Shown here piece after piece: positions 9,300 to 32,000 of a stretch of DNA of 64,000 bases. The position numbers were made by a program, and so were the translations under genes. Origin of the DNA: an uncultured bacterium (lineage in GTDB: Bacteria; Myxococcota_A; Bradymonadia; Bradymonadales; Bradymonadaceae); assembly GCA_937981985.1 (NCBI GenBank), contig CALJNB010000015.1, forward strand, positions 20,566 through 84,565, written 5' to 3'. Every line of letters begins with the position of its first letter. Positions within the stretch are counted from its first letter, which is position 1. The notes under the pieces are model-generated. The model saw only the letters and a list, made by a program, of their open reading frames with translations. It was not told the origin of the DNA and ran no database searches.

Positions 9300-9827
9300 A
9301 TGAACACTCCAAAATCTATACTTATATTGTCTGTGCTTATGCTTGTGGGGTGTTTAACCGATACCACTCGTGTGTACCGGTCCACCAATAATGGGACTAC
9401 AAATAATGGATCCAATAACGCGTCTCATACGAGTTCGACTGCGGCTTCCAATAATAATTCTAATCAAGGTGCAAATAATAGTTCTAATAATACATCGACG
9501 GCGACCTCAACCGGAACCACTCAGGGGCCCACGATTGTCTGTACCGAGGATAAAGACTGCAATGGGACGACTTGCTTAATCGATGCTGCGGACGCGACGA
9601 AAAATATATGCGGTGAATGCAGAACCTCATCAGAGTGTTCTGGCTTGAACGCGTCAAAATGTGACGCGGATAATCTTTGTATCGCGTGTGTGGAGGATTT
9701 GGATTGCGCGCATCTGAAGGGTACCCCTGGATGTGATAATGGACAGTGTCATGAATGTACGAAAGAAGAACATTGTGATGGGTATGCGTGTAATCTTGCT
9801 GATCATGTTTGCACGGATCAATTTTAG
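9300..9827 (+). CDS. Cys-rich lipoprotein with Asn/Ser/Thr-rich linker (short paralog of 10004 gene)
   Basis: MNTPKSILILSVLMLVGCLTDTTRV lipobox; NNGTTNNGSNNAS... linker; Cys-rich domain matching the next gene. Confidence 0.7.
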   Translation: MNTPKSILILSVLMLVGCLTDTTRVYRSTNNGTTNNGSNNASHTSSTAASNNNSNQGANNSSNNTSTATSTGTTQGPTIVCTEDKDCNGTTCLIDAADATKNICGECRTSSECSGLNASKCDADNLCIACVEDLDCAHLKGTPGCDNGQCHECTKEEHCDGYACNLADHVCTDQF

Positions 9828-9898: not shown

Positions 9899-10003
9899 CA
9901 CGATGTCGCCATGGTCGTAGCTTTCAATTTTAGTTTAGGTTGAATATTATTTAGGTCCTTGATAATTGCTGACTCCGAATTTGATCCATCCTTAGGAGGA
10001 AAT

Positions 10004-10912
10004 ATGAAAAATCTAAAGTCGATGTTTATTGTACTTGTCCTTATTTTAGCAGGGTGTTTGACCGACACCACTCGTGTTAATCGTGCCACAAATAATTCAA
10101 CAACGACTACTGGATCAAATAACGCATCAAATAATAATTCTAATAATGGATCAACTGCGCTGACTACTTCGGGAAGTACCCAGGTGCCAACGATTGTCTG
10201 CAAGGGCGATGGGGATTGTAATGGATCAACCTGCTTGATGGATTTGACCGATGCGACAAGAAATCGATGTGGTGAATGTCTTACTTCAGCGCAATGTCCA
10301 ATGCTTAACGCCTCAAAATGCGACGCCGATAATCTTTGTGTTTCGTGTGGTGGTGATTCAGATTGTGCTCATCTTACGGATACACCGGGTTGTGATGCCG
10401 GGATTTGTCGAGAATGTACAAAAGATGATCACTGCGATGGGACCGCGTGTGATCTTTCTACCAATACGTGTTCTGACCAGGTTTTGGGAGAAGGGGATCA
10501 ATGCGAACCTTGCCTTTCTGATGCCGTATGTAAACCTGGATCACATTGTATTGTTTTGAGTTATAAGGGGCAGAGAAACGGTCAATTTTGTCTCATCGAG
10601 AAAAAGAGCGCACCTAATGAAAGATGCCCGAGTCGGGAGTTCAGCCAATCGATAAGTCGAGTGAGTGTGAGCGGTCATCCGGCTTCGGTACACTGTGGAA
10701 TTAACGAGTCGATTACGACCTGCAGCGCAATTCGATCAACCGGCAATCGAGAATGCTATACTCAAGACAACATCTATCTTTGCATCGCTGACGAAGAGGG
10801 AGGTCGATGTCATAAAAGTACTATTAATCCTTGGACATGTTCTTTTGCTTGCGATAGCGAACACCAATGTTGGAGCGGATACAAATGTCTGGATGGTGTT
10901 TGTGGTTTATAA
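10004..10912 (+). CDS. Cys-rich lipoprotein with Asn/Ser/Thr-rich linker
   Basis: AGGAGG upstream of ATG 10004; MKNLKSMFIVLVLILAGCLTDTTRV lipobox; many Cys. ORF track starts at 9959. Confidence 0.75.
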   Translation: MKNLKSMFIVLVLILAGCLTDTTRVNRATNNSTTTTGSNNASNNNSNNGSTALTTSGSTQVPTIVCKGDGDCNGSTCLMDLTDATRNRCGECLTSAQCPMLNASKCDADNLCVSCGGDSDCAHLTDTPGCDAGICRECTKDDHCDGTACDLSTNTCSDQVLGEGDQCEPCLSDAVCKPGSHCIVLSYKGQRNGQFCLIEKKSAPNERCPSREFSQSISRVSVSGHPASVHCGINESITTCSAIRSTGNRECYTQDNIYLCIADEEGGRCHKSTINPWTCSFACDSEHQCWSGYKCLDGVCGL

Positions 10913-10987: not shown

Positions 10988-12016
10988 ATGAATAAGCGTA
11001 TTTTATCAGTTCTTTTTATTGGTTTACTTTCTCTTGGATGTGGCGAAGACGATCCAACAAAAGATAATAATGGATCAGACAATAACACTAAAACGACAAA
11101 TAATGATGGGAAGACAACGAATAATGATAAGTCTACCAACAATAAAATGACCGTTGCGAATAACGACAAGAAAACCAACAACGGAACCGCAACGAATAAT
11201 AAAACTACCACTCCTGTTCAAGAATGTGGTGTTACGATTGATTATTACGGACAGATCGCAAGTACCAATGGTATTGGCGGCGGCGTCCCAGCGGAAGAAG
11301 CACTGACAGATGATGCCGGTTTGGATGAACTTTATAATTTTCTCAACGCCCCTGATTTATCGAAAGCAACCGTAACCGATACACTTCAAGATGCGAATGA
11401 CGCAACCTCGATAGTCGGTAATACCTATACCTTTAACGAGCCAATTCAGATTACTCAGGCTGTCGTGATTGCGGGGTGGAACGCCCAGAACAGAGTCTTT
11501 TGGTTAGAGGATCAGAAACACGCGATTCCTGTAAGACTCCCAGACAAGCATACTCAATTTACCGTCCAACTTAAGGTCGGCGATGCTGTCACTTTTAAAG
11601 TCAATCAATTAGCAACGTTTAATGGTACGCCACAGATCGCTGAGGTTAGTGAGCTCACCGTAGATTCGAGCGGGAATAAGATTTCTGTAGTTGAAAGAAC
11701 GGGTATGGAGTTATCAGAAGCGGATTTATATAAGACGGTTCGCGTTCAAGGTATCATCGAAGAAGGTACCGGCCCATGTGGTGGTAGTTATGTTTGTTTC
11801 AATATGAAGCATGGAGACAAAACGGTAGTATACCGGTCACAATCAACGTTTGATGAAATAGGCGATTGCATTACATTCACTGGACCGCTTGGACTGTTTC
11901 CAGGTCAATACAAGCGGGGCGAAGACGGGAATTTGGAAGTGCAAGCGTTTGATTTAGCAGACCTTCAATTAAGCGGTGACAATTTTGATTGGGCTCGTGG
12001 CCCTTTCAAAGACTAA
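10988..12016 (+). CDS. Lipoprotein with (T)NN-rich linker and OB-fold-like domain
   Basis: MNKRILSVLFIGLLSLGCGED lipobox; KTTNNDGKTTNNDKSTNN linker; ITQAVVIAGWNAQNRVFWLEDQKHAIPVRLPD...LKVGDAVTFKVNQLATFNGTPQI OB-like strand pattern. Confidence 0.65.
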   Translation: MNKRILSVLFIGLLSLGCGEDDPTKDNNGSDNNTKTTNNDGKTTNNDKSTNNKMTVANNDKKTNNGTATNNKTTTPVQECGVTIDYYGQIASTNGIGGGVPAEEALTDDAGLDELYNFLNAPDLSKATVTDTLQDANDATSIVGNTYTFNEPIQITQAVVIAGWNAQNRVFWLEDQKHAIPVRLPDKHTQFTVQLKVGDAVTFKVNQLATFNGTPQIAEVSELTVDSSGNKISVVERTGMELSEADLYKTVRVQGIIEEGTGPCGGSYVCFNMKHGDKTVVYRSQSTFDEIGDCITFTGPLGLFPGQYKRGEDGNLEVQAFDLADLQLSGDNFDWARGPFKD

Positions 12017-12038: not shown

Positions 12039-12066
12039 ATACCGGCAAATACGCCGGTATTTTTTG
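12039..12066 (+). terminator. Rho-independent terminator
   Basis: ATACCGGC-AAATAC-GCCGGTAT followed by TTTTT. Confidence 0.85.
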
Positions 12067-12249: not shown

Positions 12250-13164
12250 ATGAAAGATATATGCCTTCTCATGATACTCGCGTTCACTTTCTCCTGCGGC
12301 GAAGCCGAATTAGGACTGGACAAAACCCAAGTCATTGACCGCTTCGGTTCCGTAGACACCGTGCCTGTTGTCGAGGAAGTCGACTACACTGATAAGGCTT
12401 ACACCTTTACCGGTCCCGACTCGATAGCCTCTCTATATCCCTTCTTTACCGACGATTTTGTTTGGTACGGATTTGATAAAGACGCCCAATATCCTATCAC
12501 AAGTACCGGCGGTGCCTGTGATAATCGAGGGAATGAAGTCACGACTTTGGCAGAACTTCCTAAAACGATCGAAGGTATTGTGACCTTGCATCCGCGCTAC
12601 TTTCAGAAAGTGAGTTTTTGCGGACAGGACGAACGTTTTTACGGTAGCTACTTCATACAAGATTCGACACGCGGCATTTTAGTTCTTAAGGACTCTCGAG
12701 TTTCCGATTTCACCTACGGAGACAAAGTGAAACTTCGTGTGCGTGGACTTGTGAAGTTTTTTGATACGTACGCGGTCATCGTCTCTGACAACGAAGAAGT
12801 ATTAGAACGTAAAAACCCGGTTTACTTTAAAGAAATCCCGTTTCGCGATTTAACCGATGCCGATATCGGCGAGAATCTTCGTTTGACCGGACGGGTGGCA
12901 GGTCTGCCAACCAATACTAACTTCAATGAACTTTGTTTGGTCGCCCAGGATGCAGCCGATGATTCGGCCTGCGACTATTGTGATAGCGGTGAGGGCGCTT
13001 GCCCCGGGCGAGTTTTGGTTTCATTGGATCGAGAAATTGGTCAGCGTCAAACAGACTTCTTCAAGATCGGCGATGTGATGCAAATCACAGGGCCTTCAGT
13101 AAATAGTTTCGGAAACAAACTTCTAGTGGCACGTATGGGCCAAATAAAAATTATAAAAGAGTAA
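12250..13164 (+). CDS. Lipoprotein with OB-fold-like (DUF5689-like) domain
   Basis: MKDICLLMILAFTFSCGEAE lipobox; YGSYFIQDSTRGILVLKDSRVSDFTYGDKVKLRVRGLVKFFDTYAVIV. Confidence 0.65.
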   Translation: MKDICLLMILAFTFSCGEAELGLDKTQVIDRFGSVDTVPVVEEVDYTDKAYTFTGPDSIASLYPFFTDDFVWYGFDKDAQYPITSTGGACDNRGNEVTTLAELPKTIEGIVTLHPRYFQKVSFCGQDERFYGSYFIQDSTRGILVLKDSRVSDFTYGDKVKLRVRGLVKFFDTYAVIVSDNEEVLERKNPVYFKEIPFRDLTDADIGENLRLTGRVAGLPTNTNFNELCLVAQDAADDSACDYCDSGEGACPGRVLVSLDREIGQRQTDFFKIGDVMQITGPSVNSFGNKLLVARMGQIKIIKE

Positions 13165-13168
13165 TATA

Positions 13169-15424
13169 ATGCAAATTTTGAAAAATCCCCTAATTTATTT
13201 TTGTGCCGCAATCATCATGTGTTTGTCTAATCTTGCGAATGCGCAAGAGATGAAATGTATGGCGATGCCGGTATGTCCATCCGGAACCACTACCGTCACA
13301 AGCTGTGAAGGAAAAAACAATTGTAAGCCCAATACGATGTGTGGGACGACTATTTACTGTGAAGCTAGTAAGGATGCTGCGACTTCAGCGTGTGAAGGAA
13401 TTGCAACATGTAGTAGCGGGACAACCAAAGTCGAAAGCTGTGAAGGCAAAACCAATTGTACCGAAACCAAGTTATGCGGAACGGTTGCCTATTGCCAAGT
13501 GAACGCGCCAGGTACGCCCGCGGTAAAAGTTAAGCCTTCAGTGAGTCCGGAAACAAAGCCGGGTCACGGTCATAAAAGCCACAAAGCGCCGAAAGGACAT
13601 GAAGGGCACCAAAACGGACACGAGCACGATGGGCATGGCTGTCACGAAGGTTACGAATGCACTACCGATAAGTGCCGTCGACACGCTGAGCACGCTGGAG
13701 ATGAAAAATCTCATCGCGATGGAAAATGCAAAAAAGACGGCAAGTGTAAAAAAGGTGATAAATGCAAAAAAGATGGCAAGTGTAAAAAAGGCGACAAGTG
13801 CAAAAAAGACGGCAAGTGTAAAAAAGGCGACAAGTGCAAAAAAGGCGATAAGTGCAAGAAAGGCGGTAAGTGCGATAAGGGCCGCAAAGGTCACAAAAAG
13901 CATTATGGCCATCATTCTGATAAGCACGTTATGGGAGCTGCAGAAACGCCTAGATTTCAATGGAACGTTTATCTTAAAAACGAAATTTATACCGCCAACA
14001 ACCGCGATTTTGTAGAAGTAAACAACGATACCTTCATCGATACTTTTGATACTGATGATCGTTTCACAATCGGAAAGAGTTCCATTTCTTTGGACGCAAC
14101 CTATCATATCAGTGACGATCTTAAGTTGAATGTCCAGCCTACCTATAGAGAAGTGTGGGGTGGTTCTGGATCAGGGGTGTTCCTTCGTAAGATGAATGTA
14201 GATTGGACAGCGTTCGAAAATGATAGCGTTAGGCTATCAACAAAAATTGGTCCTCAGCCTTTTTCAATTGGCGGCGCGGATAAAGATTTTTTCTTCTCCG
14301 ATCTTGCAACCGGTGCAACGCTTACCGCTGACATGGGTAAGTTTGGACGCCTACGTGTTTTAGCTTTAGATATCTCCGCATTGGCTGATCCTAGAAAATC
14401 ATCTTATTCTTCTTTCAAGACCGTAAGCGATAGCCGCGGTGGTGGTACCGCGAAGAATTTTGATGGCGATACTTTTACTTACAGAACAGGCGCGGTTTAT
14501 GAACTTACCGAACTTGTAAAGGGACTTGAGGTTCGTGCTTTTGGCTTCTTCGCCGACATCGGAACAGGCAACGCGCCCCATAGTGGTTCTGACCGTTCTT
14601 TCCACGGTTCACACGCTAACTTTTCCGATAACGATTTTAACTGGATCGCAGGTGTGCGTGCCGGATACCATTTGGAAGGCGAAAAACTCAAACTTCACGT
14701 TTTCGGCGAGTTCGCACGGTCGGGTGGTATAGATCGCCAAGCGATTCAGATTGGTGTTCGTGATGTGAGTGCAACCGGTAATGCTTTTGGTGGCGGTGTT
14801 AAAACCAAACTTGATTTGGGTTTCGTAAAACCACGCGTTAACGCACGTTTCTTTTTGGCCGATGGTGCAAGTCACACAAGTGCTGAGGGGCTGGCCTTTA
14901 ATTATGGATTCGTCGGATTTAACGGTGACCAAATTGGTGGACATACCGTTGGGAAAGGATCGGGTTGGCGACCTTCAGCAGTCCTAAGCAGCGAAGGCTT
15001 GACTTATAACCCTAATGATTTTGACCGTCAGTCTGGAACGATGATGGTTAATGCCTCAATCGGCGCAACCGTCATGGAACGTATCACGGTTGATGCAGGA
15101 TTTTGGTTCTATAAAGATACGAGCTCTACTGGACTTAGCGATTTTGATAATCTGTCAAAAATCGCAGAAGAACTTCCTTTTGGTTATACCGAAGCCGATC
15201 TTGAAGGTCAGGAACGTTTCGGGAAAGTTCTCGGAATGGAGTTAGAAGGTAAACTGGGTTACATCGCTAAAGAAGACGTACTTAATATCTTCGTTGGCGG
15301 CGGTATCTTCTTGCCAGGTGAGTTCTACAAAATCAAGCTCGATAGAACTTCAGGAAACGCGCTTGGTTCTGAAAATCCTGTTTCTTTCTGGGCTTTAAGC
15401 GGCGGCGCGACACTTAAGTTTTAA
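13169..15424 (+). CDS. Outer-membrane beta-barrel protein with N-terminal duplicated Cys-rich motif and His/Cys/Lys-rich segment
   Basis: Signal peptide ...CLSNLANAQ; duplicated C-x-SGT-x2-V-x-SCEGK-x-NC...CGT; HGHKSHK...; KCKKGDKCKKDG repeats; alternating amphipathic strands ending in GATLKF (C-terminal Phe). Confidence 0.75.
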   Translation: MQILKNPLIYFCAAIIMCLSNLANAQEMKCMAMPVCPSGTTTVTSCEGKNNCKPNTMCGTTIYCEASKDAATSACEGIATCSSGTTKVESCEGKTNCTETKLCGTVAYCQVNAPGTPAVKVKPSVSPETKPGHGHKSHKAPKGHEGHQNGHEHDGHGCHEGYECTTDKCRRHAEHAGDEKSHRDGKCKKDGKCKKGDKCKKDGKCKKGDKCKKDGKCKKGDKCKKGDKCKKGGKCDKGRKGHKKHYGHHSDKHVMGAAETPRFQWNVYLKNEIYTANNRDFVEVNNDTFIDTFDTDDRFTIGKSSISLDATYHISDDLKLNVQPTYREVWGGSGSGVFLRKMNVDWTAFENDSVRLSTKIGPQPFSIGGADKDFFFSDLATGATLTADMGKFGRLRVLALDISALADPRKSSYSSFKTVSDSRGGGTAKNFDGDTFTYRTGAVYELTELVKGLEVRAFGFFADIGTGNAPHSGSDRSFHGSHANFSDNDFNWIAGVRAGYHLEGEKLKLHVFGEFARSGGIDRQAIQIGVRDVSATGNAFGGGVKTKLDLGFVKPRVNARFFLADGASHTSAEGLAFNYGFVGFNGDQIGGHTVGKGSGWRPSAVLSSEGLTYNPNDFDRQSGTMMVNASIGATVMERITVDAGFWFYKDTSSTGLSDFDNLSKIAEELPFGYTEADLEGQERFGKVLGMELEGKLGYIAKEDVLNIFVGGGIFLPGEFYKIKLDRTSGNALGSENPVSFWALSGGATLKF
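13721..13882 (+). repeat. 18-bp tandem repeat, 9 copies, encoding [G/D]KCKK[D/G]
   Basis: Protein GKCKKD GKCKKG DKCKKD GKCKKG DKCKKD GKCKKG DKCKKG DKCKKG GKCDKG. Confidence 0.9.
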
Positions 15425-15425
15425 T

Positions 15426-16145
15426 ATGAAAATTACTTTTAAAAATATTTCGATTCCGCTTTTCGCCGTGCTTGCCATAGCAGCGTGTGAAGATCCGGGT
15501 GTTCCAGAAATTATTCCTTTTTATCGTCCTGTTTCGGCAAGCGGCGAAGGCGCCTCTCAAGGTGATCGCGGTAATCTCCAAATTAGCGAAATTAACTACG
15601 GCGGTTCTGTAAACGATGAGGGGGTCTATGACCCCGATGATATTTTCATCGAGCTTTGGAATAAGCATCCTCACGAACTCAATGTCTCCGGTTGGCGTAT
15701 TACCGTTGATGGGGATTTTAATGCGAGTTATCGCTTTCCAAATGTGGATAGAGCAATTCCGATTAATGGATATTTCGTCATTGCTGCGAAATCCGACGGC
15801 GCATTTGCAGATATCGCCGATGCATTTATCCCAGATTTGCGTCTGGGTAAGAAGAAAGTCCGTGTCGAAATTCGTGACATCGATAAGGTGTTAATCGAGG
15901 ACGGCGGATCAACAACCACGAGAACCTTCGCCGGCGGCTACGATGGTGTGACAGTACGTTCTATGGAACGTGTTTCACTTGTTTTTGGAAATCGCGGTTC
16001 TAACGGGGTCAATTGGCATGCTTATTCTGAAGACGTCGCCGAACCAACCGTGGCCGAGGGATACCGTAAATTCACTTTAGCAAGTCCAGGTGTTGCGAAT
16101 ACGAAAGATTATTCGGGCAACGCATCAAGTGGGAATTTCGAATGA
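15426..16145 (+). CDS. Lamin-tail-domain (LTD) lipoprotein
   Basis: ...LAIAACEDPG lipobox; LQISEINYGGSVND...DIFIELWNKHPHELNVSGWRITVDGD; C-terminal VRSMER...ASPGVAN. Confidence 0.75.
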   Translation: MKITFKNISIPLFAVLAIAACEDPGVPEIIPFYRPVSASGEGASQGDRGNLQISEINYGGSVNDEGVYDPDDIFIELWNKHPHELNVSGWRITVDGDFNASYRFPNVDRAIPINGYFVIAAKSDGAFADIADAFIPDLRLGKKKVRVEIRDIDKVLIEDGGSTTTRTFAGGYDGVTVRSMERVSLVFGNRGSNGVNWHAYSEDVAEPTVAEGYRKFTLASPGVANTKDYSGNASSGNFE

Positions 16146-17446
16146 TAAATAGATATCTAATTATTTCGTCACTCATTGCGGCCTCGTTTTTTGTGGGTTG
16201 TGATACGAGTGCTCCCGAGCCAGAATTTCTGACAAAGGTGGATCTTTTTCTTTCTCAAGCAGAAGAGATTCCGCTTAATCAATTGAAAAAAGATATTGCC
16301 GCATCGGATAAAATTCTTGGCGCCTTCAACGATATGGACGAAGTTGCTTTAGCCGATTTGTTGATCGCTGCTCATAAACGGGGTGCTTGGGTTCGTATCG
16401 TAGGTGATGAAGATTCAAAAGATCAGGCCGGTTTTAAAAAACTAATTGAAGCCGATGTCCCGGTTATGTTTGGGGACGGCGCGTTAACTTATCTTCCTGA
16501 TCCAAATCTTGGTGGAGTTTTAGAAGATTGTGGCATTAAGAACGAGCACGTTGTTCGTTGTCCACTCAATCCTGCAGCTGATACACCTATTGCCGAAAAG
16601 CGCGTCATGGTTCGCCCCGGTTCATTGAACATCATGAGCCATAATTTTTTGCTTACCAACAACACAACGGTTTGGAATTTTTCGCGCGGAGCCTCATCAG
16701 CGGTTGATGGACCGATGGTCGGTTATCGTATTGAGTCTGAAAGAATGTATGAAGTTTTTGAACGTGAGCAGCGTCAACTCTTCGGTGGTTCTTTTGCGAC
16801 TGAACTAGATGTTTATAACGGGCCGACAAAATCATCTCAACAAAATAATCCTAGCTTCAATGCCGAGAGTTATCTTTCCGATGTCGGAGAGTTTAAGACG
16901 ATGTTCAATCCGCAAGAACGTCTTGTTAAAAAAGTTATCGATGAAGCGTACCGCGCCAAAGCGTCGGTTTGGATTGTGACCGATAATATGGTCGATGATG
17001 TGCTCGTTGATGCACTTCGTTATAAAGACCAATATTTTGATGTGAGAGTGATCACCAACGCCGCTTCACAATCTACCGGTGTTTTTGAGTCGAACGATGA
17101 GTTCGTTAAAACGGCACCTGATACGATTGGGTACTTACCTACAATTATCATCATTGATTCTCAGCTAGATCCTAACGGAGACAAACGCCCAAGACAGGTG
17201 ATGGTTCTATCTCATCCGCTTCATCGCGCGAGTCCGTTTAGGATACTCCCCCCACGAACTGCCGGTGGTGATGATCGCGCTGAGATCTATACGTCTGATT
17301 ATTTCATCGATGGAAATCTTTGGGGCATGAGCGAGTACAACACTCAAGTCGACATTGCATCGGATGAAAGCCCGGGCAAAATTAAAGAGATAGATCAGTT
17401 CGTAAGCTTTTTTGATGTCCTCTGGGAAAAGTCGAGTAAATTATGA
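16142..17446 (+). CDS. Phospholipase D-like lipoprotein with degenerate HKD motifs
   Basis: ...IAASFFVGCDTSA lipobox; fold segments align with the downstream PLD (LIAAHKRGAWVRIVGDE), but the HKD positions read SHNFLLTNN and HPLHRASPF. Confidence 0.65.
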   Translation: MINRYLIISSLIAASFFVGCDTSAPEPEFLTKVDLFLSQAEEIPLNQLKKDIAASDKILGAFNDMDEVALADLLIAAHKRGAWVRIVGDEDSKDQAGFKKLIEADVPVMFGDGALTYLPDPNLGGVLEDCGIKNEHVVRCPLNPAADTPIAEKRVMVRPGSLNIMSHNFLLTNNTTVWNFSRGASSAVDGPMVGYRIESERMYEVFEREQRQLFGGSFATELDVYNGPTKSSQQNNPSFNAESYLSDVGEFKTMFNPQERLVKKVIDEAYRAKASVWIVTDNMVDDVLVDALRYKDQYFDVRVITNAASQSTGVFESNDEFVKTAPDTIGYLPTIIIIDSQLDPNGDKRPRQVMVLSHPLHRASPFRILPPRTAGGDDRAEIYTSDYFIDGNLWGMSEYNTQVDIASDESPGKIKEIDQFVSFFDVLWEKSSKL

Positions 17447-19374
17447 AAAATTTAATTCCAATTTTTGTCCTGATTTTATCTCATCTTTTTGTCTTAAGTG
17501 CGTGCACTGAGTTTTCTGATGAGGACGCAGCTGAAGCATCTAAGCCTGCAGTGAGTGTCGTGTTCAATCACACCGGTACACGTGAAGGAAATCGTGAAGA
17601 CATCCAGTCCGCGCAATTTCTTATTGATCGAATTGATTCTACGAAAAGTATTCTACGTGGCGCTTTATACGGATTCTCAAATAAAGGGGTAATCGATGCT
17701 ATTGTTCGTGCCCACTATCGAGGTGTAGATGTAAAAGTTGTCGGTGATGCGCGTCACTTTGGATATAACGAACGTGGTTATAGGATTCTTCAAGAGAATC
17801 ATGTTCCGATGATTGTCGGAAATCAGTTCCATATTATGCACAATAAGTTTTTCGTATTTGATGATTATTTCACATTTGTGGGTACGGGAAATATTACGAC
17901 TACCGGTTTTACTCGTAATAATAATAACTGGGTTCTTTTGGAATCACCTCAAATTGCCGCAGATTTCATGTCTGAGTGGGATCAAATGTGGGAAGGCCGT
18001 TTTGGTTCTGCAAAACATCTTATCGATAACGGCAATATTTATAATGTTGGAGACACAACAGTTGAAGTTTATTTCTCACCACAAGAAGATGCGATGGGAC
18101 GTATTCTAGAAGAGTTGGATATCACAGATACTAATATTTACTTTTCAATCTTCGCATTTACGAAGGATCAAATCGGAAGCCGTTTTGTCCAAAAGCATCG
18201 CGAGTTTCAGGCTTATAATAAAGACAAGGGTTTAGATGATCTTCAAGTGGTTTCTATTAACGGTAAAGCAGAACAACCGAAGAAAGTTGTAGGTGTTCTC
18301 GATCGTTCTCAGGTTGCCGGTAACTTTCTCTATCACGAAGTGTATCGTTTAGCGTCGTCGGGGGTTCCGATGCGCATGGACGCCAATGAGAACTCTCGTG
18401 TTCCTGGTGATTATCAAGCCGGAGGGGGTCGACTTCATTCTAAGACAATGGTGCTTGATGCAGGTACACCTAACGCACGTGTGATTACAGGAAGTTTTAA
18501 CTGGTCATCGGCCGCGACCATCGCCAACGATGAAGTTCTTTTGATTCTTCGGGGCGAAGCAATTGCCGATGAATATTTACGAGAATTTCATAACTTTTGG
18601 AGAACAAGTCGTCCTCTTGATGTTGGTGTGTGTAACTACTTGGTAGGTCAAACGGATAGTGCCGCCGATCAGGATCATATCGATAGACTTCCTCCAGAGC
18701 AGCAAATTGAACGACCGATGTGTTCGGCCGACGTTGATCCTGGAGATGTCGTCTTTAGTGAAGTCTATTGGTACGGATATAACGGTGAGAAAGACAGCGC
18801 TGACCATACGGGTTTCCGAGACTTTGTGGATAATGACGAATTCATTGAACTTTATAATCCTACCGATAAAACGATTAATCTATCTCTTTGGACGATCACG
18901 AATGGCTTTGATTTTAAAGTAGGATTTATTCCGGGTACTGTGATTCATCCTGGTCAATACTTCCTTGTTCTTGATCACAATCTTGCTGCATATTCCGATG
19001 TTTCGCCTCAGAATGAAACGGAAGCTTTTGCGAATCCAGATTTTGCGACCAACGTTTCTAATGATCCACGTTTTCCTCGTTTGAATCTTCAAAACTCAAG
19101 CATGGCTTTGCATCTCATTGATGCATCGGGAGAAGTGATTGACTTAGCCGGCGACTCAACGCCTCCTTTTGGTGGCGGTGCGACTTTGGATAGTGATAAC
19201 GAAGTGATCAAAGTTCGATCGATGGAACGCATTATCACGAACGGAAAAGTAGCAGGTGCAGGAGATCAAAAAAGCTCTTGGAAAACCTGTTCAGCTGCTG
19301 AAGGCGGTAAAAACGTTAACGAACGTTACCGGTCACTCATCAGTGCAACACCGGGTGAGGCCAATTCTGAATAA
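17443..19374 (+). CDS. Phospholipase D/nuclease-family lipoprotein with two HKD motifs and C-terminal lamin-tail domain
   Basis: ...LSACTEFSDED lipobox; HNKFFVFDD and HSKTMVLD...GSFNWSSAA; LTD DEFIELYNPTDKTINLSLWTITNG. Confidence 0.85.
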   Translation: MKNLIPIFVLILSHLFVLSACTEFSDEDAAEASKPAVSVVFNHTGTREGNREDIQSAQFLIDRIDSTKSILRGALYGFSNKGVIDAIVRAHYRGVDVKVVGDARHFGYNERGYRILQENHVPMIVGNQFHIMHNKFFVFDDYFTFVGTGNITTTGFTRNNNNWVLLESPQIAADFMSEWDQMWEGRFGSAKHLIDNGNIYNVGDTTVEVYFSPQEDAMGRILEELDITDTNIYFSIFAFTKDQIGSRFVQKHREFQAYNKDKGLDDLQVVSINGKAEQPKKVVGVLDRSQVAGNFLYHEVYRLASSGVPMRMDANENSRVPGDYQAGGGRLHSKTMVLDAGTPNARVITGSFNWSSAATIANDEVLLILRGEAIADEYLREFHNFWRTSRPLDVGVCNYLVGQTDSAADQDHIDRLPPEQQIERPMCSADVDPGDVVFSEVYWYGYNGEKDSADHTGFRDFVDNDEFIELYNPTDKTINLSLWTITNGFDFKVGFIPGTVIHPGQYFLVLDHNLAAYSDVSPQNETEAFANPDFATNVSNDPRFPRLNLQNSSMALHLIDASGEVIDLAGDSTPPFGGGATLDSDNEVIKVRSMERIITNGKVAGAGDQKSSWKTCSAAEGGKNVNERYRSLISATPGEANSE

Positions 19375-19853
19375 TGGGAATGGAAAAGAAAAAGATAGGC
19401 GGATACGTTCTTTTTCTATTTCTGTTCATGTTTTCTTGTAAAACGAAGACGAAGGCAAACACGAAAACAACAGCCGATCCAAAAATCGCCTTAGCTTGTC
19501 CAGACTCCAAGATTAAGCAAACCCACTCTGTGTATTTAGAGGGGCTTTTCACTGTCGATGCTGAGACGATCGTGCCAGCTGGAGAGAAGGCGTTTCCGAT
19601 TACCTTAAATATCGAAGACTTAAAAAAGTTGAATGAGGGTGCTGACGAAGTTCTTTGTCGTGTTTTAGAACGACGAGGAATAGGTTCGGGGACTGAGGGG
19701 CAAAACCATGGTTTTCCGGTATTAAATATCGAACGAGGTCCGGGTCTAAAGTTGAAAGGAAAGAAGGTAGAGTTTCTGATACCACCCGCTGAAAAGGCTG
19801 CCGAACTTCTTACGAATTTCGAACATTCCTTAGACCGACTCCTGGATAGTTAG
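19374..19853 (+). CDS. Small lipoprotein
   Basis: KKIGGYVLFLFLFMFSCKTKTK lipobox; start overlaps upstream stop (TAATG); alternative start 19380. Confidence 0.6.
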   Translation: MGMEKKKIGGYVLFLFLFMFSCKTKTKANTKTTADPKIALACPDSKIKQTHSVYLEGLFTVDAETIVPAGEKAFPITLNIEDLKKLNEGADEVLCRVLERRGIGSGTEGQNHGFPVLNIERGPGLKLKGKKVEFLIPPAEKAAELLTNFEHSLDRLLDS

Positions 19854-19948: not shown

Positions 19949-21487
19949 ATGAAGAAAATCGTATTTTTTGTTCTTTGCTTTACGCTGGTCGCCTGTGATT
20001 CAGAAAATGAAGAACGTAGCGAGTCCCCTCAAACAAGTATTGGCGGGGAAAGCAATTCATCAACGAACAACAACACGTCAACGAATAATCTAAAAGCGAA
20101 TAACGGGATGTCCAATTCGAACACGACATCAAACAATACGCCGGTGGACAACGGTGGTTATACACGTCTGATAAAGCAAGGCTCCGACTATTTTGGTTCT
20201 TCAGAGAAGTTTAACGCTTATTATACGGACCCGAACTGGACCCCGAAGCGTGTTATTTACGTCGCGATGGATGGAGGCGATGGTTTCGATTCGCAAAGTT
20301 ATGAGAGCCCGATCGGGATGGAAACAGCATTATCGAATCTAGAACCAGGTGATTTTATTTTCGTGAAAGCGACGTCTGGTCCGATTTCGGATGTTAATAT
20401 CAGAGTGGATTCCGACCAAGGGGGAACCTACGAACAACCTGTTGTGTTTTACGGTGAGAGAAGGACCGATGGGAGTTTAGGAGTGCATTTGGAATGCGCC
20501 ACGTCGGGTTCGAATGCGAACACAAGTTGTTTCAATTTGGAAGCTTCGAACTACATCGCGATCGATGGTTTTATCATGGAGGGTGGAAATTACGGAGTAA
20601 GGGCGGTGGGAGCTTATGAAACATCAGGTCATCAGCTTGGGGTGGCGATGTTGAATAATCACGCTTTTGATCAAGAAAAAGACCCACTTTTTTCAGGAGG
20701 ATCTGATTGGTTAGTCGTTGAATCCAATATTTGTCACGGGGCCAAAGAAGGCGATGGTCATGGGCTTTATCTTTCGAATGGTTCTGATTGGAATATCGTT
20801 CGTTTTAACGAGTTATACGATAATGTAAGTTCGGACTTTCAGGTTAACGCCGATCCTTTATCTACGTGCGACTCATATTCGGATGATTCATGCCATGGGA
20901 GTGCAAATGATCGAAAAGGAGATGGCGTGTCGGAATTTTTTACGATTATGGATAACTTTTTTCATGATGGAAAAGGCCAAGGTCCCAATTTTACTTCGAT
21001 GAGAAATTCGAAGGTATCCAATAATATCTTTGGGCCGTATGAACGCCACAACCTTTCATTTTGGCAGGAGACTGAGGAAGCTAAATTGGGTTCGTCCAAT
21101 AACGAATTCGAAAATAATCTTTTGGTTGGATTTAAAAGTCATCTTTTACAATTCAAAAATAATTCGAATGGCAATAGAATTTCGGGCAACATCTTGATGG
21201 GGCTTAACAAGTCAGGTTCTGAGGTTGACACGAGTGTGGTCGCGATCGAGGTCGAAAATTCATCAAATAATACCTATGCCGATAACTTTTATTTCACGGG
21301 CTTGCAATTGGGGCATGCCTTGGAAGATTCCGAAGTCCATTCTGACAAATTGCCTTCCGATCTTTTTAGAACCACTTCTTTTGCCAGAGTGGGTCACCCA
21401 GAAGATTGGACGCCTAAGACAGGCGAATTGGGTGGCTGGAAGCCGCCGCAACTGCATGTATTTCCATCTCCCTACACCCCCAAATAG
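19949..21487 (+). CDS. Right-handed beta-helix-like lipoprotein (paralog A)
   Basis: VLCFTLVACDSEN lipobox; N/S/T linker; repeated short beta-helix-like coils (SDWLVVESNICHGAKEGDGHGLYLSNGSDWNIVRFNELYDN). Confidence 0.7.
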   Translation: MKKIVFFVLCFTLVACDSENEERSESPQTSIGGESNSSTNNNTSTNNLKANNGMSNSNTTSNNTPVDNGGYTRLIKQGSDYFGSSEKFNAYYTDPNWTPKRVIYVAMDGGDGFDSQSYESPIGMETALSNLEPGDFIFVKATSGPISDVNIRVDSDQGGTYEQPVVFYGERRTDGSLGVHLECATSGSNANTSCFNLEASNYIAIDGFIMEGGNYGVRAVGAYETSGHQLGVAMLNNHAFDQEKDPLFSGGSDWLVVESNICHGAKEGDGHGLYLSNGSDWNIVRFNELYDNVSSDFQVNADPLSTCDSYSDDSCHGSANDRKGDGVSEFFTIMDNFFHDGKGQGPNFTSMRNSKVSNNIFGPYERHNLSFWQETEEAKLGSSNNEFENNLLVGFKSHLLQFKNNSNGNRISGNILMGLNKSGSEVDTSVVAIEVENSSNNTYADNFYFTGLQLGHALEDSEVHSDKLPSDLFRTTSFARVGHPEDWTPKTGELGGWKPPQLHVFPSPYTPK

Positions 21488-21634
21488 AACTAAATATGTA
21501 TTGGGAACGCATGACGCCATGGGGCAATGATCTATAAAGCACCGGTTTCTGCGAAGAGCTTGGGCTTTTTCCATGATTTCTAGATCCATGTCATCTGCGT
21601 GTTATATTTTGAAAAACCAACAATCGGGAGCCGT

Positions 21635-23137
21635 ATGAAGTATGCATACATATTTGTTTTTCTTACGTGTTTATCGGCATGTAATCTGACTGACTCGGAA
21701 CCCCAATTGTTCAACACAAATAATGGAGTTGAAAATAATAAAGTTGGCAGTGAGTCGAATAATCGAACGACGAATCAGAATAGTGGGTCAAATAACACCA
21801 CAAATAGTAAATATGAACCTTTAGAGCTCCCCGGCGGGAATTATTTCGGCTCGCCTGAGAAGTTTAACACCTATTACACTGACCCAAATTGGACACCCAA
21901 GCGGGTAATTTTTGTTTCGATGAATAGCGGTAATTCTAATTTTGCTGCACAGTCGTATGACAATCCGGTGTCGATGGATTCGGCGCTATCTAATGCGTTA
22001 CCTGGCGATCTTATTTTCGTTAAGGCGACCCCAACGCCGGTCACCGGCGTTAATATTCAATTGAATGTGACATCGGGAACCAGCTCAGACCCTATTGTTT
22101 TTTATGGAGAACGAACCTCTGACGGCGGTTTAGGGGTTCACTTAAAATGTTCGACGGAAAGTATAGATTCTAAGGGAAGTTGCTTCAATATCGAAAGTTC
22201 CTCTTACTTCGCTCTGGACGGATTTATATTAGAAGGCGGCAGATATGGTGTACGAACGGGTGGGGTGAGTTCATTCCATCAGTCGGGTATTACGATTGTC
22301 AATAGTTCTATTTTCGATCAGAAAAAAATCGGGATTTTTGCTTTCGCATCCGATTGGCTCGTCGTCGAATCGAGCACAATCTACGGCGTTAACGACCATG
22401 GTGGTCATGCAATTAAACTTACATATGGGTCTGATTGGATTGTGATTCGTTATAATGAACTATTCAATAACGCCCAGGCCGATATCTTTGTCGACAGTGA
22501 AGCGTCGAAGACCTGTGAAGGGCTAGATTTAGCAGGCGCAGCGTGTAGCGGCAGAGCAGAAAATGGTCAGGGTTTGGGGGTTTGCGAGTTTTTCACAATA
22601 AGCCACAATTTTTTTCATAACGGCGAGGGTGACGGACCGAATTTTATTTCGATGCGTAATTCCAAAATTAGTGAAAACATCTTTGGTCCCTACGAGGGCA
22701 CTGGGGTTTCTTTTTGGCAAAAGACGAGCGAACCTTCGTTAGGTTCGTCTAATAACACGGTATCGGGGAATCTATTTGTAGGCACCATGGGGCATCTCGT
22801 ACAATTTGCGTCTTGGTCTAATGATAACCTGTTTAGTTCTAATATTCTTCTGGCGCTTAACGCGTCAGGTACGGCCGTCAATACGGCAATCCAAGTCATT
22901 GAGAACGGGGATTCTGAGTCCCGGACCACTTATAGCGATAACTTTTACTTTAGCGGTGTCGATTTCGGTCATACCTTAGAGGATTCTGAGACCCATACTT
23001 CCCAACTGCCCTTTGATTTTTTTAATAGCTCCTTTGCGCGGATTGGTCATCCGGAAGACTGGACTCCCAAAGAGGGGGAAGTGGGAGGATGGAAACCGCC
23101 GGTGCTCTCTGTATTTCCTTCGCCTTATTCTAGGTAA
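21635..23137 (+). CDS. Right-handed beta-helix-like lipoprotein (paralog B)
   Basis: MKYAYIFVFLTCLSACNLTD lipobox (ORF track starts at 21599); same architecture and C-terminal FARIGHPEDWTPKEGEVGGWKPP as paralog A. Confidence 0.7.
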   Translation: MKYAYIFVFLTCLSACNLTDSEPQLFNTNNGVENNKVGSESNNRTTNQNSGSNNTTNSKYEPLELPGGNYFGSPEKFNTYYTDPNWTPKRVIFVSMNSGNSNFAAQSYDNPVSMDSALSNALPGDLIFVKATPTPVTGVNIQLNVTSGTSSDPIVFYGERTSDGGLGVHLKCSTESIDSKGSCFNIESSSYFALDGFILEGGRYGVRTGGVSSFHQSGITIVNSSIFDQKKIGIFAFASDWLVVESSTIYGVNDHGGHAIKLTYGSDWIVIRYNELFNNAQADIFVDSEASKTCEGLDLAGAACSGRAENGQGLGVCEFFTISHNFFHNGEGDGPNFISMRNSKISENIFGPYEGTGVSFWQKTSEPSLGSSNNTVSGNLFVGTMGHLVQFASWSNDNLFSSNILLALNASGTAVNTAIQVIENGDSESRTTYSDNFYFSGVDFGHTLEDSETHTSQLPFDFFNSSFARIGHPEDWTPKEGEVGGWKPPVLSVFPSPYSR

Positions 23138-28015: not shown

Positions 28016-28958
28016 CGCGCTTCTGATGAATCGCGACGCTTAGGCCAATCAGAGTAATAACTGCCCCTATCCATTCCCATCCTGAAATTGAGAACATGAA
28101 GGTCGCCGGGAAAATAAGCGCGAGCACGAATTTTGAAATCGAAGTTAGAGGGGGGTTGAGAAAGACGGTAAAGCCAACCGAAGATGCGGGGAGGTGTCTA
28201 AGTAACCAGCTCCAGATAGCAAATCCCACCACGGTGCACGGAATTGATAGATAGAGTAGGGCGAACCAACCTTTGGTATCCAGAGCAACGAGGTCGCCCC
28301 AAGCGAAAAAGGGCGCGAGCGGTAAGATATACAGTCCACTGATGACAAGGCCAAGGTAGGTCCAAACGATAGCGGATTCTTTTTCCAGTGCAGGTTTGCT
28401 TAAGACCGAGTAAATAGACCAGCATAGCGGAGCGAGTACGGTGATTCCCACCATGAGAGAGTAGCCCGAAAAACTGCCTTTTGAATTAGCGATGAGGGTC
28501 ATGCCCGCGGCCGCGATCGTGAATCCGATAAGTCGGCGTTTTGTAAGTTGCTCGCCTAGAAAAATCGCAGCCAAAAACATTATAAAGAGGGGGGCTAGTG
28601 TTGTTGTCAGTGACGCGATGTGAGCCGGAACGCCGTTTTGTTGTGCGTAATTTAGTGCGAGATTATACGCCGGTACGTTTAGTGTTGCACAAATTGCAAG
28701 CCGACCTTTGTGTCTCCTGAAGAGTGCAATGGATTCTTGAAGAAGAAAGCAGACGAGATAAGAGCCTGCGACGAATGCGGCGACCAAGAAACGGGCGACC
28801 ATGAGTCCCACCCAATCAAAACGCGCGGGGTTGCCGTCGTTTCCCAGTAGAAACCCGATTGCAATAAAGCTGTTACCCCAAACAAAGAAGAGCGAGAAGG
28901 TCGCGAGGAAGAGGGTGATTCTTGTTGGACTATTTTTCAAAACTTCAACCATGCGCAA
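28005..28958 (-). CDS. EamA/DMT-family transporter
   Basis: About 10 hydrophobic segments; internal LNLALNYAQQNGVPAHIASLTTTLAPLF...FLGEQLTKRRLIGFTIAAAGM EamA-type signature. Confidence 0.85.
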   Translation of the reverse strand: MRMVEVLKNSPTRITLFLATFSLFFVWGNSFIAIGFLLGNDGNPARFDWVGLMVARFLVAAFVAGSYLVCFLLQESIALFRRHKGRLAICATLNVPAYNLALNYAQQNGVPAHIASLTTTLAPLFIMFLAAIFLGEQLTKRRLIGFTIAAAGMTLIANSKGSFSGYSLMVGITVLAPLCWSIYSVLSKPALEKESAIVWTYLGLVISGLYILPLAPFFAWGDLVALDTKGWFALLYLSIPCTVVGFAIWSWLLRHLPASSVGFTVFLNPPLTSISKFVLALIFPATFMFSISGWEWIGAVITLIGLSVAIHQKRVKK

Positions 28959-29086
28959 AGGTACGGCATCCTTTTGAAAAAGTAAGGGTTAAGTGGATTC
29001 TCTTCGGCCTATTTTTGTTTGTGCTTCTACGTAGCTTCGGTAACCTGCCTAAAACTAAAGTTGATAAACATAAGGAGCACCCCCCA

Positions 29087-32000
29087 ATGAAGAACTTCGT
29101 GATTTTTTTGTTTTTTGTCGTTTCAACTAGCATGGGGCATTTCGCCTACGCGCAAGATACCGACGGAGATACGGTCGATGATATCGTCGATCTGGATGAT
29201 GACAATGATGGGATATTAGACGTCGACGAAATGTTGTGTGGTGGGCCGGTTGATTTGGACCTCGCGACACCCATCGTGACCGACTTTCCGATGAGACCCA
29301 ACTTAGGCGCGGCTAAGTTTACTGGTTCTGTAACGGCAAATCACTCAAGTATGGATCTTCCTACTGGGACCTCGGCGGGCCAGTTTCGCGTGCGTAACTC
29401 CGGCGCTGGCGAATTTACCGAATATGAGATGACTTTTGAATTTCCTACAGATTTGGTTCTGTCTGATGGGCAAGGCTTTGGCGCATTTGAACAACTTGAG
29501 ACGTGGACCTTCACAACCGACGGGCCTGCGCTTCATGTTGAAGATCCCGGGGTCATCGATGCACCGTCAACAGTCGGTGGGACGACCACTTTGTATACAG
29601 GTAATGAGTTAAACAACGTTGTGGGACAAGATACCTCCACAGTTTCGTTCAGTCCCGCTACAACTAATGCGGAAGGGCATATTGTTCCTGATGATTCGAA
29701 TTGGTCGATGGTAGCGAAGGGCGTGCGCGTCCTTACTATTCGAGTAGTGACGTCAAACGCTGGAGCTAACGTTTCGAGTATGAGAATTCGCACTGATTGT
29801 GTGAAGTTAGATCCCGACAGCGATGGAGTCGCCAATCACGAAGATTATGACTCAGATAATGATTCCTGTGTTGATGGACTCGAATCCTCAGGGGCGCAGA
29901 GTTACGATAATCTTTCGGGGAATTCTTTAGCCGGCCCAGTCGATATGAATGCGATGAGTCCGACCTATGGGGTACCGCTTGTAGCAGGGACGGGCTTTAT
30001 GATTGGTTCTAGTACAGACCCTTCGGTCCAGGCTATTGAATGTAATTCATGTAATAGTGCAAGCTCACTTTTTTCCGATAATGATAACGATACCATCGGT
30101 GATGATTGCGATGTTGACGATGATAACGATGGGGTTTTAGATACCGTTGAGTGCGTGGAGTTACCGCGCCAGACGATTACCTTGGCGGACTTTGGAGTAA
30201 CGATGGCGGCAAACGATGGTTCCATAAATGGTACCGTCGACGTGAGTTCCAAATTTGGTTATCCACTAGGGAGCGTCATTGTTAGCGTTGAAAACGGAAG
30301 TACGAATACGGCCGGTACAGCATTCACGGTCGGAAGAAATGATTTAGGGACTCTACTCAATACCCGATTTCTCGTTTCGGGAACGATTCCGGTAAAGGCC
30401 GTTGTTTCCCATGGTTCAGTAAACTCGCATAGTGATGGTTTCTATTCTTTGTTCGGCGGTGAATATGAATTCACGGCACCGGGTGAAATGGGATATACCG
30501 ACCAGATAGAAGGAAACAATTATTACGTCGAGAATATCATGGGAGACGGAAGTCTTCAGATGATCTGGGCCAGCGAAGGCTGGGCGAGAGGCGTTGAATT
30601 TTATTCAACACGTCCACAAAAGAATACGGCAAGCGGTGTAACGCTGAGACTCGTCGGTTGTGCTGATACCGACGGTGATGGTGTTATCGATATGTATGAT
30701 TTTGACTCAGATAACGATCAGTGTCCTGATGGTCTAGAGTCATCTGGTGGTCTCACTTACTCTGATTTGACTAATAATGTTTTAACAGGGGCCGTCGACA
30801 TGGATCCTAATAGCGCAACCTATGGGCTCCCAGTTTCAGCCGGAACGGGGTTTGCTTTGGGTTCTAGCACGGATCCGGCCTTGCAATCAGCGGAATGTAA
30901 TCCTTGTGATGGAGGTAGTAGTTTATTCTCTGATCAGGATGGTGATACGATCGGTGACGCCTGCGATATTGATGATGATAACGATGGAATAGTCGATACT
31001 GTTGAAAATAACTGTTCGTCGCTTTCGATGGCACAGTTTTCAGAAGATTTCGAAAATCCTGTGATGACGAACGTGCACGTAAACAATCTAACCAATAATG
31101 TATTCGGTCAGTTAAGCGTACAAGATGCAGCTGTGCGATTTAATCAAATTCGCGTGGATGGAACGGGATACGCTAACGGTCCTGACGTGGCTAATAGTGG
31201 TGATCAGTATATCGATATTTCTGGCGTGGGTCCGTTGCTACTTCCTGTAACGCTATCAGCATCCGGAAAGATGAACGCGTCTTATTTTGTCGGCAATTGG
31301 GCATCACAAAGCGCGGGATACACGGCTTGGGATGCAAAAATTCAACTCCTTGACGCTTCTTTTAATATGATCGAAGAGGGGCCCGCTTTTTCCTTAATGC
31401 AATCTATGGGTCAGGAATTTTGGCAAAAAGTTGAATTCGAAAGTTCAACTCAGGCCGCAGGTGATTACTATATTTCATTCAGTATGGGGAACTGGGGAGT
31501 TGTAGATGATATTTCAGTTGCCGTGAATGGATGTGATTCCGATGGTGATGGGGTCGCTAATCAATCCGATTTGGATTCCGATAACGATGGCATTCCGGAC
31601 GTTATTGAAATGCAGCCTTCGGGAGACACTTACGTTGCTCCAAGCGGTATGGATTCGAATAACGACGGGCTTGATGACGCATTGGTTGGAATGACGCCCG
31701 TGAATACCGACGGTGTTGATGAACCTGATTATTTAGATTCCGATTCTGATAACGACGGAACACCTGACATTGAAGAAAACGGAAACAGCAACGGCACGCT
31801 CGCTGGTACCGATGCTGATAACGATGGGATTGATGATAATTTCGACACTGTTGCTGGTGGGTCTATGCTAGGAAGTCCGGGAAATGTAACGTCGGGACTT
31901 GATCCTACTACGGGTACCGATCTCGGTGATGAAGATGGCGATTTCGATCCAACCATGCCCGTGGCATTGACCGACGAACTTGACTATCGCGATGGCACAA

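Follow-up and report, generated by a model that had tools for sequence, protein, structure and literature searches.

A conserved Myxococcota cassette of exported PLD, LTD, OB-fold and barrel proteins: a candidate surface nuclease system

What does a tightly packed series of exported proteins, among them two PLD-family members, lamin-tail-domain (LTD) and OB-fold lipoproteins and an outer-membrane barrel, do for an uncultured bacterium of the Bradymonadaceae? The locus lies in the window, the whole 64,000-nucleotide stretch of DNA that was analysed; the window belongs to contig C15, and the genome comprises 4.09 Mb in 146 contigs at 85% completeness. The first-pass annotation proposed a surface complex that cuts DNA or phospholipid and imports the products through the barrel. 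An exported, syntenic system with the predicted folds was recovered in our analysis; the import step was not. We see about an even chance that the genes named here g0 to g5 specify a surface-exposed complex of the outer membrane, in which a cell-attached PLD nuclease degrades extracellular DNA or RNA.

The six open reading frames initially described, g1 to g6, were all confirmed on the + strand as a tightly packed series, separated by 4, 1, -4, -4 and -1 bp. Each product carries an export signal, as had been claimed: lipoboxes are present in g1 (TFSC), g3 (IAAC), g4 (FVGC), g5 (LSAC) and g6 (FMFSC), and g2 has an ordinary Sec signal. The proposed six-gene operon holds as a unit for g1-g5, but its borders had to be redrawn. 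The small lipoprotein gene g6 (19374..19853, +) was found in the window genome only, none of the relatives that were fetched having a match to it, so it was excluded from the cassette. Additionally, the annotation had omitted the conserved first cassette gene, g0 (10988..12016, +), which encodes a lipoprotein with an OB-like region common to g1. The conserved unit extends from the start of g0 at 10988 to the end of g5 at 19374. Between g0 and g1, a consensus scan detected a terminator-like hairpin with a T run (12039..12066, +), suggesting that g0 may be a separate transcript in the window genome, although such sites are not clearly more numerous in this region than in shuffled sequences.

Several other proteins are encoded nearby. 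Just 5' of g0 lie two paralogous lipoproteins in tandem, both Cys-rich and with Asn/Thr/Ser linkers (9300-9827 and 9959-10912), the second of which had no match in the loci of relatives. Directly 3' of the cassette is another tandem paralogous pair, of lipoproteins with Asn-rich linkers (19949-21487 and 21599-23137), which found no match in the relatives' loci tested; the second member contains a right-handed beta-helix (Pfam PF13229). Further downstream, 28922-34918 encodes a protein of 1998 aa in which a Big_9 immunoglobulin-like domain was the only part to receive an assignment.

Loci in other genomes were collected by protein searches in 58 relatives and by a g2 profile search of 379 genomes phylum-wide, and were then fetched and re-annotated. 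The g2 profile was positive in 61 of the 379 genomes. The order g1-g2-g3-g4-g5 on one strand was found at all 18 intact loci within the class Bradymonadia, and order and strand were likewise kept at all 20 loci from other Myxococcota families; at one locus, 2.7 kb of inserted sequence separates g1 from g2. The first-pass annotation had made its proposal depend on synteny in relatives, and a g1-g5 order that holds at 38/38 loci is far beyond chance. Gene g0 adjoins g1 at most in-class loci and at 13 of the 20 out-of-class loci, and overlaps or gaps of a few bp are common between cassette genes. The tree distances of the five proteins g1-g5 correlate (r 0.75-0.90), which partly reflects species phylogeny. 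It is very probable that g1-g5, together with g0 in most genomes, act together. Extra g0-like genes were also seen: a second one 3' of g5 in the same-genus relative (L070, 3624-6384), and others in L085, L086 and L087.

The flanking genes differ between loci, which indicates that the cassette is a unit and not a piece of a larger conserved region. Conserved flanking partners were ruled out, as the most widespread flanking family (PP2C-like) occurs in just 7 loci, and no nucleotide-related genes were found flanking the cassette. Presence within the class is patchy, with whole families lacking the cassette. A contig scan returned 3 loci only, and because its query peptides were window-specific it gives no statement on other phyla. 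A mobile origin was rejected, since g2 had no match in plasmids and no g5 relative was found in viral contigs.

The predicted enzyme of the cassette is g5 (17443..19374, +), a lipoprotein in which an intact two-HKD PLD is fused to an LTD, just as the annotation had it. Pfam detects PLDc_2 twice (5.4e-35) and, over the cut-off, the LTD (PF00932, 4.4e-14, 53.2 bits against a gathering score of 34.3). Two HxK(x4)D motifs place the protein in the PLD superfamily, and both triads, H133 K135 D140 and H332 K334 D339, are invariant in 39/39 orthologs. The closest solved relatives are nuclease-type PLDs, in line with the DNA-cutting half of the original proposal: the g5 profile matched Nuc best in the PDB (1byr; 2.8e-20, 75 bits), followed by MitoPLD (67 bits) and NucT (56 bits), with a phospholipase (33 bits) and FAM83B weaker. 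Since its best NCBIfam match is NucT at 41.5 bits against a cut-off of 297, g5 is, judged by sequence, a relative of NucT and not a member of that family. To our knowledge, the substrate of a PLD protein is not readable from sequence, and the MitoPLD group is itself annotated as cardiolipin hydrolase. Profile scores put g5 near the PLD nucleases; its substrate may be lipid or nucleic acid, with the solved relatives favouring the latter.

Directly upstream of g5 lies g4 (16142..17446, +), a lipoprotein in the window genome. Its Pfam match to PLDc_2 is weak (9e-5, below the cut-off), and it aligns with g5 at E 8e-28 in hhalign. At motif 1, the His is replaced by Ser or Thr in 39/39 orthologs and the Lys is never present, with the Asp retained in 36/39. 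In motif 2, where the register was set by the spacing to the conserved Asp, the His is mostly Leu or Val, the Lys has become Thr in 35/39 and the Asp is kept in 38/39. The catalytic His and Lys of an active PLD are gone from both motifs, which bears out the earlier description of g4 as degenerate. The loss of His and Lys and the retention of Asp across the orthologs show that g4 is not decaying but is a pseudoenzyme under constraint, always encoded beside the active g5. Nothing else in the system is as distinctive as this conserved pseudoenzyme. The protein is Sec-exported in some orthologs, and 4 orthologs have no clear lipobox.

The accessory lipoproteins carry folds that the annotation had correctly foreseen, and whose failure in profile searches would, by its own terms, have refuted its proposal. 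For g1 (12250..13164, +), an AF2 model built on 18 orthologs (pLDDT 81) contains two OB-type barrels in tandem. The best Foldseek matches, with E from 1e-5 to 1e-3, are POT1, Teb1, SSB, HIN and RPA domains, and the five-strand barrel that defines the fold is present, with single-domain TMt of 0.54-0.59; whole-chain TM is low (0.2-0.3), and OB proteins would be the matches of an OB fold of any kind. Pfam gave only weak matches to DUF5689/DUF5818. The region common to g0 and g1 spans 118 columns in an hhalign comparison with the g1 profile (prob 97%, E 1e-10). The LTD lipoprotein g3 (15426..16145, +) matches Pfam PF00932 over the cut-off (1.6e-9, 38.5 bits against 34.3) and is conserved as well as g5, with a mean column identity of 53% in 16 orthologs. 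In Myxococcus xanthus, Lys at +2 marks inner-membrane lipoproteins (PMC3222651). The cassette lipoproteins have no Lys at this position and are therefore likely to reside in the outer membrane or matrix; the export signals, together with the conservation of the g2 loops described below, suggest that they are exposed at the surface.

The leading alternative keeps this surface complex and changes the substrate. The PLD would cleave or transfer phospholipid head groups, either of the cell's own outer membrane or of prey, with the LTD and OB domains serving as adaptors to protein or lipid; both folds are also able to bind proteins. Phospholipases and cardiolipin synthases are HKD enzymes too and appear among the weaker matches of g5, and an outer-membrane setting places the enzyme beside lipid. 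Bradymonadia are, moreover, predators (PMC7460792, PMC11509652). However, Nuc and related proteins are the nearest matches of the g5 profile, and tandem OB domains are better suited to nucleic acid, and we regard a phospholipid substrate as unlikely.

The outer-membrane barrel predicted by the annotation, g2 (13169..15424, +), was supported by AF2 and Foldseek. The model has 18 strands at residues 263-750, preceded by a disordered N-terminal linker. The nearest solved folds are AlgE, MOMP and chitoporin, with TM of about 0.65 to the target and 8-14% identity for AlgE and MOMP; when the g2 profile was run against the sequences of solved structures, nothing was found. The linker (about residues 28-255) is variable and carries Cys-rich modules and a His/Cys/Lys-rich insertion (about residues 140-245). 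The annotation had singled out this insertion. Orthologs lack it, and even the same-genus one has almost none of it; a functional role for it was therefore discarded. The Cys-rich module is repeated within about residues 28-120 and also has matches among other proteins encoded by related genomes, and is apparently a shuffled surface module.

In ordinary porins, strands are more conserved than loops. In g2 the order is reversed: if the usual porin topology is assumed, with the N-terminus and short turns in the periplasm, conservation is 0.64 in the presumed extracellular loops against 0.54 in the strands (Mann-Whitney P 1e-7) and lowest, 0.38, in the periplasmic turns. We read this as a conserved interface on the outer face, pointing to a surface complex. 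The pore-facing strand residues are net acidic in 17/20 orthologs, as estimated by strand parity and not from coordinates, with the window's own g2 among the 3/20 exceptions. A pore of this kind makes passage of nucleotides or polyanions less likely, and an anion-import barrel was rejected on this estimate.

The pore estimate also bears on the uptake step of the original proposal, whereby DNA or lipid products cut at the surface would enter through g2 as a nutrient porin. An 18-strand barrel in the operon, nearest to AlgE, MOMP and chitoporin, would fit such a role. Bradymonadales are predators in which purine and pyrimidine synthesis is incomplete (PMC7460792), so that scavenging of nucleic acid is plausible, and the window genome itself has no pyrB match. 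However, pyrB is over the cut-off in 29/50 carriers of the operon versus 33/50 non-carriers, which shows no association, and a link to nucleotide auxotrophy via this gene was rejected; family f5 lacks pyrB and the operon alike. Because the operon does not track pyrB loss, we claim no nutrient-import role, and with the acidic pore as well, import through the barrel appears rather improbable.

An even poorer prospect is a surface-building system, in which the complex would trim or ligate a surface or matrix polymer with phosphodiester links, or the AlgE-like barrel would export a product: AlgE is an exopolysaccharide exporter and Pfam Alginate_exp (PF13372) was detected in 2/20 g2 members, but only below the cut-off (best E 0.004), the pore estimate is not electropositive, and no polymer synthase or glycosyltransferase was found conserved beside the cassette.

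For a surface nuclease, the cassette can be assembled into the following working model. The g2 barrel would serve as membrane anchor and scaffold, with its conserved extracellular loops docking the lipoproteins. Enzymes of the PLD superfamily act through a covalent phospho-histidine intermediate, and g5, as the sole active enzyme, would be a phosphodiesterase of the Nuc/NucT/MitoPLD type using this chemistry. Its inactive twin g4 may be a structural or substrate-positioning partner, while the two OB lipoproteins (g0, g1), together with the LTDs of g3 and the g5 tail, would hold the substrate at the active site. The substrate would most likely be DNA or RNA from lysed cells or prey, and the outcome either nutrient release or the clearing of matrix or prey DNA. 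As a tentative specification, which we rate somewhat short of an even bet, the cassette encodes an undescribed Myxococcota surface nucleic-acid machine, in which an active and a conserved inactive PLD sit as an asymmetric pair on a dedicated, non-transporting barrel, with OB/LTD lipoproteins as substrate clamps, and act on prey or matrix DNA.

The annotation had allowed that the family might already be characterised as something else; full-text searches found no published description of the cassette in the library covered. Within that scope the system is undescribed as a whole, and it is built from known domains. Its order is conserved beyond one class, in a phylum known for predation, and beyond their domains its proteins lack an assigned function. 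It also offers a clear enzyme-pseudoenzyme pair and, in g2, a barrel with unusually conserved outer loops.

Parts of the cassette resemble several known systems. The DISARM protein DrmC and DpdK are PLD proteins with a weak family-level match, but every part of the cassette is exported and the locus has no further defence gene, and with generic PLD matches only, a defence system was rejected. Nuc (1byr) and NucT (6ehi), PLD-superfamily nucleases with HKD motifs and among the best g5 matches in PDB and NCBIfam, are short, single-HKD proteins, whereas g5 combines two HKD halves and an LTD tail in a single chain and belongs to a dedicated operon. The alginate exporter AlgE and the Campylobacter MOMP belong to the same outer-membrane barrel fold class as g2, which differs from them in its low identity, conserved extracellular loops, net acidic pore estimate and lack of alginate genes. 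The nearest parallel is with nucleases of the ExeM/NucH type, which are exported, envelope-associated and, like the cassette, combine an LTD and two OB regions with a nuclease (ExeM, PMC6085458; the Izemoplasma LTD nuclease, PMC8289736). In Shewanella ExeM a single chain holds all these elements, and activity depends on the OB region (PMC6085458). ExeM/NucH proteins are single chains with an EEP catalytic domain, whereas the cassette relies on PLD catalysis, spreads its domains over separate lipoproteins and adds a pseudoenzyme and a barrel. Membership of that family was ruled out, as no cassette gene contains an EEP nuclease domain and ExeM/NucH (NF033681) was over the cut-off in 0/50 carrier genomes, a count made in carriers only and thus no comparison with non-carriers. 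The ingredients of ExeM (LTD, two OB regions and a nuclease) are distributed over the cassette lipoproteins, and a surface-anchored nuclease complex is the most economical reading. If it is true, the combination of LTD, OB and nuclease arose a second time, as a multi-subunit assembly and with another catalytic fold.
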